Source: Stigmatella erecta
GTDB taxonomy: Bacteria; Myxococcota; Myxococcia; Myxococcales; Myxococcaceae
Assembly: GCF_900111745.1 (NCBI RefSeq)
Contig: NZ_FOIJ01000002.1
Span: 496,001-560,000, forward strand
Length of the DNA stretch: 64,000 bases
Reading direction: 5' to 3'
Shown here: one piece after another, positions 32,019 to 38,224 of the stretch
Layout: each line of letters starts with the position of its first letter
How positions within the stretch are numbered: the stretch's first letter is position 1
The notes under the pieces: generated by a model
Database searches by the model: none
What the model was told of the DNA's origin: nothing
Seen by the model: only the letters and a program-made list of their open reading frames with translations
Made by a program: the position numbers and the translations under genes

Positions 32019-32127
32019 GGCGGCGGATGTAGCCTAGATGGGGCCCCCTCGGGAAGCGCCCGGACGCGGCGGGGCCCCCATGCGCCCAGTGCCGCACACC
32101 CGGGGCAGGCGGTAGAGTCGCCGGGTG

Positions 32128-33231
32128 ATGGTTCTCCCACCGCGGCTCTGTCTGCTTTTCATCCTCCTGCTGGCCTCGGTGGGGCTGGCGGCCCCCGCGC
32201 CCGCGCCCCCGGGCAAACCCCTCACCGTGCACTTCTTCGACGTGGGCCAGGGGGACGCGGCGCTCGTCATCTCGCCCACCGGCAAGACGGTCCTCATCGA
32301 TGGCGGCCCCCCGGAGGCCGGCCCGCGGCTGGTGGAGCGGCTGCGCCAGCTCGTCCACGCCCCGTTGGATCTCGTCATCCTGACCCACCCGCACCTGGAT
32401 CACCTGGGGAGCATGCGGGACGCCATCCAGGCCGTGGGGGCGCGGCGCTTCATGGACCCGGCGTTCGACCATCCGAGCGCCGCGTACCGGGACCTGCTGG
32501 AGTTCGTGGGTAAGGAGGTGGGCCAGGTGATGACCGCCAGCCCCAACCCGAAGGCGCCCAGCACGTTCCTCACCATCGGGCTGGGCGAGGGCGTGCAGCT
32601 GACGCTCTACTGGCCCCGCCATCCGCTGGAGCCCTTCCTGAAGGACACCCGGTCCGATGCGAACTCCAACTCCATCGTCGCCCGGCTCTCCTATGGAAAG
32701 ACGTCCTTCCTCTTCACCGGCGATGCGGAGCCGGACACCGAGCAGGCCCTGCTCCAGAAGAACCTCCCCCTGGCCTCCACCGTGCTGAAGGTGGCGCACC
32801 ATGGCGGAAGACACTCCTCCACGGCGCCCTTCCTGGCCGCGGTGAGCCCCCAGGCGGCCGTCATCTCCTGCGGCGCGAACAACGAGTACGGCCACCCCAA
32901 CCCCGAAGCGCTGGAGCGCCTGGCGGGCGTGGGCGCGCGCATCTTCCGGACGGACTTGCAGGGGGACATCCAGGCCCTCAGCGACGGCACCACCGTCACC
33001 TTCCAGACCGGCCGCCCGGCGGCCCCCGCCAGGCCCGCCCCCTCCCCGGAGCGCCCCGCCGCCACCGCCGCCCCGGAGGCCCCGCGCTACATCAGCCTCA
33101 AGGGCAGCCAGGTCTTCCACCGGGAGGACTGCGCCACGCTCAGGCGGGCGAAGACGAAGGAGCGGAAAATCTATACCCGCCGCGCGGACGCCCTCCGGGA
33201 ACGCCGGGCCGCCGAGGACTGCCACCCATGA
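32128..33231 (+). CDS. Exported ComEC-like metallo-beta-lactamase-fold protein with C-terminal Ada-like zinc domain
   Basis: The 367-residue protein has a signal peptide (about 1-23). Its MBL domain is closest in style to the C-terminal domain of ComEC: HFFDVGQGDAALV, the metal motif H87-P-H89-L-D91-H92, FTGDAEPDTE and AHHGGRHSS (H224, H225). All key ligands are present. After a Pro/Ala linker, a 45-residue C-terminal domain (VFHREDCATLRRAK, ending AEDCHP) resembles the Ada-like zinc-binding tail on some thermonucleases, missing one of four expected ligands. A secreted or periplasmic nuclease or phosphodiesterase role is plausible. The stop overlaps the next start (ATGA). Confidence 0.88.
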   Translation: MVLPPRLCLLFILLLASVGLAAPAPAPPGKPLTVHFFDVGQGDAALVISPTGKTVLIDGGPPEAGPRLVERLRQLVHAPLDLVILTHPHLDHLGSMRDAIQAVGARRFMDPAFDHPSAAYRDLLEFVGKEVGQVMTASPNPKAPSTFLTIGLGEGVQLTLYWPRHPLEPFLKDTRSDANSNSIVARLSYGKTSFLFTGDAEPDTEQALLQKNLPLASTVLKVAHHGGRHSSTAPFLAAVSPQAAVISCGANNEYGHPNPEALERLAGVGARIFRTDLQGDIQALSDGTTVTFQTGRPAAPARPAPSPERPAATAAPEAPRYISLKGSQVFHREDCATLRRAKTKERKIYTRRADALRERRAAEDCHP

Positions 33232-34568
33232 ACGCGCGCCTGCTGCCCCTGCTGGCCCTGCTCCTCGCCACCGCGTGCCAGGAGCCGCCCGCGCCCCCCG
33301 CCCCGCCCCCGGCGCCCCCGCCCCCCGCGGCGAAGCGCTACTTCGCGAAGCCCGCAGATGGAAAGCTCCACGTCTACTTCCTGGACGTGGGCGCCGGGGA
33401 TGCCGCGCTCATCGTCTCGCCCGAGGGCCACACCGTCCTCATCGACACGGGCCCGGCCGCCTCCCTCAACTACCTGGTCAACCGGCTGCCGGAGCTGCTC
33501 GCCACCCGGTTGGATCTCGCCATCCTCACCCACCCCGCCCCGGACCATTACGGCGCGCTCGAGGCGGTGCAGAAGGTGGCGGACATGCGCCGGCTGCTCG
33601 AGCCCCAGCTGCCCGGCACGGCCCCCGAGTACGACGCCCTGCTCACGGCCCTGGGCACCCGGGGCGTGGAGATCTTCTCCCCGGCCCCCAACCCCAGCCA
33701 CCCCAACGAGCCGATGCGCCTGCCCCTCGGCGGGGGCGCGGAGCTGACCGTGCTCTGGCCGCGCGCGCCCACCGAGCCCCTGCTGGCCGTGGAGGGCGCC
33801 GGGCACGCCGCCAACTCCATCGTCCTGCGGCTCACCTATGGGGAGACCTCGGTGCTCTTCATGGGGGATGCCCGCGCCGAGACGGAGGCCCTGCTGCTCA
33901 AGCGCCAGGAGCCCCTGCGCGCCATGCTCCTCAAGGTGGGCGCGCACGGCGCGGCGCTCGCCACGAGCGCGGAGTTCCTCCAGGAGGTCCACCCCCAGGC
34001 CGCCATCCTGAGCCTGGGCACGCAGGGCCCCCCGGACCTGCCCGCGCCAGACACGCTGGCGAGGCTGGAGGCCGCCAAGGCCACCGTGTTCCGCACGGAC
34101 AGGGATGGAGAGATTCACGCGGTGAGCGACGGCAAGCAGTTCGTGCTCACCCCGCAGCGGCTCCCGCCCGGGAAGAGCACCCTCGCCGAGCACGTCTTCG
34201 TGCCCGAGGAAGAGGAAGCGCCCCTGGCCGTGCCGCTCGTCGCGCCCTCCAAGCCGGAGCCCGTGAAGGCCCCCCCGGTCCCCGCCAAGACCGTCTCCGG
34301 GAAGACACGCGAGGGCGAGGACCTCTCCCGCTTCGGGCAGGTGGTGGACATCGATCAGCTGCCCAAGGCGGAGCGCACCTCCCGGCAGCCCGCGAAGCCC
34401 AAGGCCACCGCGGCCACGGAGCGCTATGTCGCCAGCCGCAAGAGTGACGTCTTCCATGTCCCGGAGTGCCGCAATGCCAAGCGAATCTCGCCGGAAAACC
34501 TCATCACGTTCCGCACCCGCGAAGAGGCCGCCAAAGAGCGGCGGCCCGCCCGGGACTGCAACCCCTAG
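33228..34568 (+). CDS. Exported MBL-fold lipoprotein, paralogue of the preceding gene with degenerate metal site
   Basis: This 446-residue protein has a lipobox-like LLATAC near residue 17 and the same two-domain layout as its neighbour. The metal motif reads H102-P-A-P-D-H107 instead of HxHxDH, and the later AHHG reads GAHG, so two histidine ligands are lost while FMGDAR is kept. The C-terminal tail (VFHVPECRNAKRI, ending ARDCNP) is conserved, after a longer Pro/Lys linker. It is probably catalytically weak or dead and may pair with the upstream active copy as a regulatory or binding subunit; this is inference. Confidence 0.87.
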   Translation: MNARLLPLLALLLATACQEPPAPPAPPPAPPPPAAKRYFAKPADGKLHVYFLDVGAGDAALIVSPEGHTVLIDTGPAASLNYLVNRLPELLATRLDLAILTHPAPDHYGALEAVQKVADMRRLLEPQLPGTAPEYDALLTALGTRGVEIFSPAPNPSHPNEPMRLPLGGGAELTVLWPRAPTEPLLAVEGAGHAANSIVLRLTYGETSVLFMGDARAETEALLLKRQEPLRAMLLKVGAHGAALATSAEFLQEVHPQAAILSLGTQGPPDLPAPDTLARLEAAKATVFRTDRDGEIHAVSDGKQFVLTPQRLPPGKSTLAEHVFVPEEEEAPLAVPLVAPSKPEPVKAPPVPAKTVSGKTREGEDLSRFGQVVDIDQLPKAERTSRQPAKPKATAATERYVASRKSDVFHVPECRNAKRISPENLITFRTREEAAKERRPARDCNP

Positions 34569-36725: not shown

Positions 36726-37013
36726 ATGCCGGCGAAGGACCTCGGGAACAAGTACGTCTGCTTCAAGTGCAGCACGAAGTTCTACGACATGAAGAAGCCG
36801 GATCCCCTCTGCCCCAAGTGCGGAGCGGATCAGCGCGAGAGCCCGGCCCTCAAGCCGGCCACGGAAGGGCGCCGGGGCCGCTTGGCCTCCACCCCGAAGG
36901 TCATCGAGCCCATTGAGCCCGAGGAGCCGGAGGCCGCCGAGTCCGAGGAGGAGGAGGACCTGGACTCCTTCGACGAGGAGCCCGTCGAGTCCGAACAGGA
37001 AGAGGAGATTTAG
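36726..37013 (+). CDS. FYDLN-acid family protein with N-terminal zinc ribbon
   Basis: The 95-residue protein has a zinc ribbon (CFKC near 12 and CPKCG near 30) with the family motif KFYDM just after the first pair, and a strongly acidic C-terminal tail rich in Glu and Ser. This is the TIGR02300/FYDLN_acid layout, common in proteobacteria with no established function. The acidic tail suggests a protein- or RNA-associated adaptor. Confidence 0.85.
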   Translation: MPAKDLGNKYVCFKCSTKFYDMKKPDPLCPKCGADQRESPALKPATEGRRGRLASTPKVIEPIEPEEPEAAESEEEEDLDSFDEEPVESEQEEEI

Positions 37014-37101
37014 GCACCGGCAGTACCGGGTGGGTCGTTTTACACCCAGCCGAAGGGGCCTCCGCTCATGGGCGCGAGGTCCCTTCTCCTTTGCGGGCCC
37101 T

Positions 37102-37269
37102 TCAGTTCCCGGCGACGAGCTTCATCTCGACTTCCAGCGCGGCCACGGCCTGGCGGATCTGCTCGTAGAGCATGGGCCCCATGGTCTGCATCCCCACGGG
37201 GCGCACGGTGGGCTTCGGGCCGGTCAGACGGACGTCAGCCACCCCATGGACTCGCTTCTTGGTGTGCAT
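37102..37269 (-). CDS. Small 55-residue protein of unknown function behind a sigma-54 type promoter
   Basis: An ATG at 37269 is preceded by a perfect AGGAGGTGA (37276-37284) with 6 nt between. The frame runs to TGA at 37102 and encodes 55 residues. The product begins MHTKKRVHGVADV, has a basic, Met-containing middle, and ends in an amphipathic helix (YEQIRQAVAALEVEMKL). No signal peptide, membrane segment or known family is visible. A near-consensus sigma-54 element lies 41 bp upstream. The Shine-Dalgarno, promoter and correctly placed frame make this a real gene candidate. Confidence 0.75.
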   Translation of the reverse strand: MHTKKRVHGVADVRLTGPKPTVRPVGMQTMGPMLYEQIRQAVAALEVEMKLVAGN

Positions 37270-37309
37270 CGGCAGTCACCTCCTGTCTGACGTTGCAAAC
37301 CCGGACATA

Positions 37310-37325
37310 AGCAATTTTGTCGCCA
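37310..37325 (-). promoter_or_regulatory. Sigma-54 (RpoN) promoter, -24/-12 type
   Basis: On the minus strand these 16 bases read TGGCGACAAAATTGCT. The GG and GC doublets are separated by exactly 10 bases, as in the TGGCACG-N4-TTGCW consensus, and the TTGC box is exact. The predicted start site is near 37299, giving a leader of about 30 nt that contains the strong Shine-Dalgarno of the 55-residue gene. Confidence 0.7.
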
Positions 37326-37398
37326 CGCCCGCTCTTTTTTTGCCTTCTTCACATTTCAGCCACTTGCGCGGCCCGCGGGCACGGCCTGGAGCCAGCAG

Positions 37399-37416
37399 TG
37401 GGACGAATGTGTCCCA
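37399..37416. promoter_or_regulatory. 18-bp dyad, possible enhancer-binding-protein site
   Basis: TGGGAC and GTCCCA flank a 6-nt spacer, giving a perfect 6-bp dyad. It is centred about 108 bp upstream of the predicted sigma-54 start site, the range where bacterial enhancer-binding proteins usually act. No U-run follows on either strand, so it is not a good terminator. A second 10-bp palindrome, GCCCGCGGGC, lies at 37371-37380. Confidence 0.35.
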
Positions 37417-37453: not shown

Positions 37454-38224
37454 TCAGTGCAGCGCGCTCACGGGCCAGGACTGGTCGGCCTGCTGCGTCT
37501 GGCCCCCCTCGATGGAGAAGGAGCGCGTGGCGTCGGGCAGCCGGGGGTGCCAGAAGAGCACCGTGTGGGTGCCCTCGGGCACCTCCAGGCGGAAGCGGCC
37601 CTTCTCGTCCGTCGTCGTGAAGTAGGGATGGTCGAACGTGCGAACCACGGCCCGCATCCACGGGTGGACGTCGCACTTCACCTGCAGCGTCCCGGGGGTG
37701 GCCGGCAAGGGCCTGCGCAAGCTGGTGCCCTCCAGCGGCATGGCCACATTGAAGAGCGGCTGGGAGCCCGCGACCGCGCGCACATTGTGCATCACCGGGT
37801 CCGAGTTGCGCACCTCCAGGGTAGCGCCCACCCGCGCGGCGAGGATGGGGGGCTCGTAGGCGCACTTGCGCTGGTCCAGCACCGGGACCGGCGGCGTGAG
37901 CCCCTCCGCGGGCAGCGAGGCGCCCTCCACGAGCGCCACCACCACATGGGCCAGGGCGCCCTCTTCGCCCACGGAGAGCGAACGGTCGGGCACCGTGTCC
38001 CCGCATACGGAGGCCACCGAGGCGGTGGTCTCCCGCATCTCCACCGGAGGCGGCGTGCCGAGCAGCCGGACCTGGCCGGTGAGGAGGCCGCGTCCGGCCG
38101 GGGAGGCGGCCGCTCCCGCCTTGGCGGGAGGGGAAGCAGGCGGCACAGGGCTTTTCGGAGAAGGCCGGCACGCAGGAAGGGCCACGCCGAACACGAGAGG
38201 AGCCAGGAGCAGGAGCTTGCGCAC
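37454..38224 (-). CDS. Plastocyanin/cupredoxin-like lipoprotein
   Basis: The 256-residue protein has a lipobox (ALPAC near 19). Its beta-rich body includes VRNSDPVMHNVRA near 140 and KCDVHPWMRAVVRTFDHPYF near 185, the His/Cys/His/Met pattern of cupredoxin-type copper sites. A C-terminal segment (EKGRFRLEVPEGTHTVLFWHP) resembles carboxypeptidase-regulatory-like folds. It probably binds copper in the periplasm or at the cell surface. Electron partners are unknown. Confidence 0.75.
   Translation of the reverse strand: MRKLLLLAPLVFGVALPACRPSPKSPVPPASPPAKAGAAASPAGRGLLTGQVRLLGTPPPVEMRETTASVASVCGDTVPDRSLSVGEEGALAHVVVALVEGASLPAEGLTPPVPVLDQRKCAYEPPILAARVGATLEVRNSDPVMHNVRAVAGSQPLFNVAMPLEGTSLRRPLPATPGTLQVKCDVHPWMRAVVRTFDHPYFTTTDEKGRFRLEVPEGTHTVLFWHPRLPDATRSFSIEGGQTQQADQSWPVSALH

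Follow-up and report, generated by a model that had tools for sequence, protein, structure and literature searches.

A conserved 55-residue protein gene with a predicted sigma-54 promoter in Stigmatella erecta and related Myxococcaceae

A 55-codon gene of Stigmatella erecta is conserved among its relatives together with its place and its promoter. In seven related clades a palindrome lies upstream of the promoter, and palindrome and promoter recur as a compound element in front of other genes. The gene was found in the window, the 64,000-nucleotide stretch of contig NZ_FOIJ01000002.1 analysed here. Its predicted promoter is most likely sigma-54-dependent, as judged from conserved letters and spacing. 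We regard it as quite probable that the gene stands alone and encodes a small soluble protein which docks by a helix, and that it is controlled by sigma-54 and an enhancer-binding protein (EBP) acting at the palindrome, within an envelope-related circuit.

The small gene, its product and its address

As shown in Table 1, the gene is read from the minus strand and converges on a gene with a FYDLN_acid domain. The promoter, the GG-N10-GC spacing, the leader of about 30 nt (given the predicted transcription start), the Shine-Dalgarno sequence AGGAGGTGA and the 55-codon frame all lie as the initial annotation had described them. The segment 37005-37104 has a folding energy of −43.7 kcal/mol (z −2.49), which was equalled by 2 of 200 shuffles. 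Elsewhere in the window, at 32125-34568, two adjacent genes encode similar products with the motifs HPHLDH and HPAPDH, which we take to be of the metallo-beta-lactamase kind.

Table 1. Features of the small gene and its surroundings (positions in the window).
Feature	Position	Strand	Basis or remark
Small protein gene	37102-37269	minus	55 codons; ATG at 37269, stop codon ends at 37102
Shine-Dalgarno AGGAGGTGA	37276-37284	minus	Read from the sequence
Predicted transcription start	37299	minus	Inferred from the position of the −12 element
Predicted sigma-54 −24/−12 promoter TGGCGACAAAATTGCT	37310-37325	minus	Sequence and conservation in relatives
Putative degenerate IHF-like site CAAGTGGCTGAAAT	37353-37366	minus	Sequence and by-eye comparison
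18-bp inverted repeat TGGGACACATTCGTCCCA, candidate enhancer	37399-37416	minus	7/10 letters of TGACA-N4-TGTCA
Intergenic hairpins between two convergent stops, likely shared terminator	37014-37101	minus	Folding
FYDLN_acid (PF09538) gene, convergent neighbour, synteny marker	36726-37013	plus	E 8.6e-13
Gene 5' of the small gene, same strand	37454-38224	minus	Sub-threshold CarboxypepD_reg match

A single-sequence query found relatives of the small protein in 14 of 59 related genomes, and a second query (E up to 0.01) found the gene in 58 of the 96 genomes of the taxonomic family. Using a 17-row profile at E<1e-3, we detected it in 73 of these 96 genomes and in one genome of each of two other families, which makes 75 of 195 genomes of the phylum, leaving out five further genomes with E between 1e-3 and 0.02. 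When genome contigs were scanned, the single sequence gave no relative and the profile gave 16 loci. The gene is single-copy in nearly all genomes, with weak second matches in a few. Genome G036, from another family, holds a possible second, unlinked copy (L232 near 1415-1565; G036:C254), and no FYDLN_acid match was found near it. A record titled Comamonas sp. KCTC 72670 (L114) carries the myxobacterial locus of the gene; its name looks wrong.

Residues K5, R23, P24, G26, Q28 and Y35 are invariant across 40 aligned rows. The deeper 17-row set has no invariant column, its amino-acid identity falls to 22-46%, and P24, G26 and Q28 are present in at least 90% of its rows. One member from clade g5 lacks the RPxGxQ motif and retains the helix. 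The synonymous bias by which the initial annotation proposed to judge the frame was found: dN was lower than dS in 18 of 19 close pairs, the sole exception being G094/G104 with four changes. Between G001 and G006, nine of ten substitutions were synonymous; the bias was weaker between the window's gene and that of G003 (dN 0.10, dS 0.16, dN/dS about 0.64). This pattern points to purifying selection on a frame that is conserved and, by this evidence, protein-coding.

No model in Pfam or NCBIfam credibly describes the family, the matches being isolated, from single members and at E 0.006 to 0.09. PHROGs gave zero matches, and a profile search of the PDB gave one meaningless match (E 0.68). LYEQIR is the start of the GntR winged helix, and a similar stretch is held in the helix of the small protein; a GntR-type regulator was rejected, as none of 40 members had a GntR match in Pfam and the protein is shorter than the domain needs. 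No paper in the open-access literature, outside which most subscription papers lie, was recognised as dealing with the gene. Judged by these comparisons, the gene appears to encode a protein of a new family, while the kind of control is a known one.

AlphaFold2, run with 17 sequences, predicted one helix at residues 28-53 (pTM 0.40). Block means of pLDDT were 73-84 for residues 21-50, 65 at the end and near 50 for residues 1-20. The protein most likely consists, according to this model, of a disordered basic N-terminal tail, the RPxGxQ motif and one C-terminal helix. This combination of a basic, unstructured tail with a conserved turn motif and just one helix suggests the build of a partner-binding adaptor or inhibitor.

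The convergent FYDLN_acid gene lies directly 3' of the stop codon in 58 of 58 first-round loci, and in 8 of 8 and 6 of 8 loci of two deeper sets, the exceptions among the deeper loci being G007 and the second copy of G036, both away from FYDLN_acid. The same convergence is seen in G035, from another family. The same-strand gene 5' of the small gene is missing from 8 of 58 loci, that is, tblastn gave no match at 1e-4 in the fetched stretch, which argues that the small gene is its own transcription unit. FYDLN_acid is present and the small gene undetected in G012, G014, G024, G026 and G027; in G014 the flanking genes directly adjoin each other. Eight genomes of clades g43 and g23 in which the small gene was not found also had no FYDLN_acid match, so that assembly gaps are more likely than loss. 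Next to the small gene, no gene for an activator was noticed. Family, synteny and the promoter conservation described below bear out the reading that a real gene for a small protein is present, with a sigma-54-type promoter of its own.

The promoter and the upstream palindrome

The promoter letters are TGGCGAC-AAAA-TTGCT at 37325-37310 of the minus strand, with GG at 37324-37323 and GC at 37312-37311, an exact GG-N10-GC. Nine of the 12 specified letters of TGGCACG-N4-TTGC(T/A), the consensus printed in the portion of PMC9765219 consulted, are matched, with GAC in place of ACG. In the 64-kb window TGGC-N7-TTGCW occurs once against 0.97 expected from shuffles, and for bare GG-N10-GC the 1969 occurrences compare with 1924 expected. 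Since the motif on its own is no more frequent than chance would give and so lacks significance, the case for the promoter comes from conservation.

GG-N8-TTGC, with its C at 22-48 nt before the start codon, was present in 47 of 75 genomes, where 0.93 would be expected, and in all seven genomes of the window's genus, where 0.12 would be. For this count, start codons were assigned from a motif or by inspection; G036's unlinked second copy was excluded, and a GTG was taken as the start in G016. The motif is kept in 9/10 genomes of g43, 6/6 of g5, 5/5 of g16 and 1/1 each of f2, g2, g3, g4, g11, g14, g15, g18 and g24. It is kept in part or not at all in g23 (9/25), which we take to be the genus Myxococcus, and in g8 (2/6), g12 (0/4) and g17 (0/2). 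Outside these four clades 36 of 38 genomes have it; it is not intact in G077 and G036 (f3). Near-consensus TGGCA[AG]G[CG]-N3-TTGCT was seen in the loci read from g2, g5, g14, g16 and g18. A count of TGGCAAGCNNNTTGCT across the phylum gave 70 occurrences, spread over 47 of 195 genomes, where the reversed control gave 23; of the 70 occurrences, seven are promoters of the small gene. Frame and promoter, whose loss in close relatives would have spoken against the initial annotation, are thus both conserved there, and the promoter appears from these counts to be as old as the protein. Since the protein persists where GG-N8-TTGC is not intact, sigma-54 control is not needed to keep it.

A promoter of another type, for example a housekeeping extended −10 (TGnTATaaT) incorporating the TTGC block, is an unlikely explanation for the small gene as a whole. 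Many g23 genomes read TTGCTATAAG or TTGTTATG with a degenerate −24, and these are also extended −10-like. However, g43 retains GG-N8-TTGC in nine of ten genomes with variable letters after TTGC (TTTCAG, TTTAGC, TTTGTC and others), and distant genera preserve the −24 half TGGCA best of all and have the palindrome at an enhancer position. A promoter of another type may operate in parts of g23, g17, g8 and g12. Many leaders of g23, g17 and g8 have, some 45-65 nt ahead of the start, a palindrome resembling TTTCCG-N6-CGGAAA superimposed on the −24 (L054, L056, L076, L096 and similar); it could be either a new operator or a replacement promoter.

TGACA-N4-TGTCA, at no fewer than 8 of 10 letters, is present 78-113 bp upstream of the −24 in 24 of 25 genomes of seven clades (g2, g3, g5, g14, g16, g18 and g43). 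Over all genomes the count is 24 of 75 against 1.66 expected; the clades in the palindrome and promoter counts are not independent. In g23 the palindrome of the small gene is missing from 25 of 25 genomes. In relatives TGACA-N4-TGTCA is, by its sequence and place, a putative enhancer.

In the window's genus, 8 of 10 letters are reached in none of seven genomes. An inverted repeat matching 7 of 10 letters is present in the window's genome (G000) and in G003; G004 and G005 show a similar, less symmetric sequence, and G001, G002 and G006 have none. Shuffles also reach 7 of 10 letters in about 30% of cases, so the assignment of 37399-37416 rests on position and symmetry. The palindrome positions (about 80, 91, 100 and 111) differ by about whole helical turns. 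The phasing had R 0.75 at 10.5 bp (p about 0.005) in a post hoc test of ten hand-picked values, which included sites with 7 or 8 of 10 letters (own genus, G035, g3, g2, g18, g14) and left out those from g4, g11, g15, g24, g8, g12, g17 and g23.

Between palindrome and promoter lies the IHF-like site. The consensus for IHF is YAANNNNTTGATW, to which CAAGTGGCTGAAAT is presumably a weak fit. CAAGTG blocks resembling CAAGTGGCTGAAAT are also found, compared by eye, in the promoters of pxr and of the sRNA-like unit described below.

The compound element, other genes and the candidate activator

The compound element, TGACA-N4-TGTC followed after N66-96 by TGG-N8-TTGC, has 90 sites in 57 of the 96 family genomes, and the reversed control has one. 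By position, 13 of the 90 sites are promoters of the small gene. Eight sites are in g23 genomes, where the element as such persists. Among the 30 matches read as loci, the element precedes, apart from the small gene, an sRNA-like unit, predicted outer-membrane barrels, a secreted protein and lipoprotein genes, the lipoproteins being judged by eye from their N-termini. Two Corallococcus-like barrel targets lie above (L248) and just below (L258) the Pfam cut-off for OMP_b-brl. The genes at L257, L258, L248 and L236 encode predicted barrels, a secreted protein and a 485-residue lipoprotein-like protein.

The sRNA-like unit is composed of the palindrome, an IHF-like TAAGGTGTTGATTT, TGGCACCCGCCTTGC and a core with GGGGGTTCCATTGGGGAACCCTCGACGCCC, and ends in a strong T-run terminator. 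The window's own genome has a copy (L264 1501-1700; G000:C27:47773 onward). Rfam gave no match for six loci carrying the compound element, and the unit appears from its sequence to be an undescribed one of sigma-54 type. Identity with Pxr was rejected: the unit is without the Pxr 3' sequence implied by the primers printed in the part of PMC5684412 consulted, and loci with that sequence lie elsewhere. The core was found in 44 of 96 family genomes and in none of 27 from g23, by a search with one pattern and one mismatch that would miss diverged copies (G020 has a compound site and no pattern match). As g23 lacks both the sRNA-like core and the palindrome of the small gene, their joint loss fits one shared regulator. 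The sharing of the element by barrels, lipoproteins and the sRNA-like unit suggests, with low confidence, that the circuit of the small gene concerns envelope homeostasis rather than development.

A gene for an FHA-GAF-sigma-54 activator is kept in 90 of 96 family genomes, and in some loci, from several genera, a lipoprotein gene with the compound element stands behind it (for example L295 1514-4112, and loci of g8 and g12). Between the activator and lipoprotein genes, a palindrome of 8-10 letters with a sigma-54 site is present in three of six g8 loci and four of four g12 loci, and one of 7-9 letters with a sigma-54 site in G001, G006 and G020; in this gap in most other loci read the combination was not found. 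In the window's genome, G003 and G004 the lipoprotein gene follows the activator, and the 420 nt read held no 8-letter palindrome and no sigma-54 site. The activator is kept in all 27 g23 genomes and so does not track the loss of the palindrome, which leaves it a candidate. We tentatively propose, at somewhat below even probability, that the small gene has from ancient times belonged to a so far undescribed sigma-54 regulon of the Myxococcaceae, in which one EBP, for which this FHA-GAF-AAA activator is the best candidate, also drives the sRNA and outer-membrane proteins, and that Myxococcus lost the sRNA and the palindrome of this gene. If this is true, that loss may be the reason why studies of M. 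xanthus have not come across the circuit.

The initial annotation had taken the gene for a possible developmental one, and this was not borne out. Myxococcus is the genus whose development has been studied most, and 16 of 25 genomes from it have no intact GG-N8-TTGC. The Nla28 half-site is CT(C/G)CG(C/G)AG in the portion of PMC9765219 consulted; the 231 nt before the start codon hold none with up to one mismatch and three with two. The portions consulted of PMC5684412, PMC5568312 and PMC10217877 describe pxr as having a PxrR-dependent sigma-54 promoter. We found pxr loci in 48 of 96 family genomes, scanned 30 and printed eight in full. All eight have TTTCAG/CTGAAA repeats upstream of the promoter. 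Such repeats, which occur in several genera (L280, L281, L286, L288, L292 and other pxr loci), are a candidate PxrR site.

Membership of the small gene in the PxrR-Pxr developmental checkpoint has rather less to commend it than a promoter of another type. The two share a promoter class and a CAAGTG block similarly placed in both promoters, the leader in the window has a lone CTGAAAT half-site, and the Corallococcus-like pxr loci L267, L269, L270 and L275 have a version of the small gene's palindrome with 7 or 8 of 10 letters. Against this, TGACA-N4-TGTCA reaches 8 of 10 letters at most in the 30 pxr loci and its position is not constant, while TTTCAG-N2-CTGAAA at 9 or more of 12 letters was not found upstream of the window's gene. 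Control by PxrR is, on these repeats, unlikely. Given the other upstream repeats and the absence of Nla28 half-sites within one mismatch, little beyond promoter class ties the small gene to development, and a developmental role is not supported.

That the transcript is a regulatory RNA with an incidental frame, as the short gene, the hairpins 3' of its stop and the compound element before an sRNA-like unit might suggest, is very improbable in view of the synonymous bias, the conserved start and the amino-acid conservation that reaches down to the most distant rows.

Proposed mechanism and comparison with known systems

Returning to a small protein under sigma-54 control, we infer the identity of the EBP, a part for IHF, a role of the palindrome in the window's species and the action of the protein as follows. 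RNA polymerase with sigma-54 would transcribe the gene from the −24/−12 site, activated by an EBP on the palindrome about 80-110 bp upstream of the −24, and a DNA bend at the IHF-like site would probably bring the EBP round to the promoter. The protein would most likely dock its helix on one partner, as adaptor or inhibitor, and would act in an envelope-related sigma-54 circuit that elsewhere drives the sRNA-like unit, lipoproteins and outer-membrane barrels.

For myxobacterial genetics, the gene adds a protein that is very small, has long been conserved and comes with a regulatory handle already in place. Its function can be approached by way of the regulator, starting from the promoter, the palindrome and the other genes that have it. 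What has decayed in Myxococcus offers a natural experiment on how a sigma-54 circuit is dismantled while the protein is retained. An old, conserved promoter and a protein outside the known families suggest a regulatory circuit that is so far undescribed.

Among the Myxococcus sigma-54 genes treated in the portion of PMC9765219 consulted, pilA and the Nla28 targets resemble the small gene in having a GG-N10-GC promoter of TGGCACG type with an enhancer upstream, which for the small gene is a candidate one. They differ in that the Nla28 targets have the half-site CT(C/G)CG(C/G)AG, whereas relatives of the small gene have TGACA-N4-TGTCA, and in that the small gene's product has 55 residues and no known family. 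The likeness of pxr with PxrK/PxrR, as far as the consulted portions of its literature describe it, consists of a sigma-54 promoter, the CAAGTG block and, on the 5' side, an enhancer region that is putative for the small gene; in contrast to the small gene, pxr has other upstream repeats and an RNA product, and it adjoins the gene of its activator.
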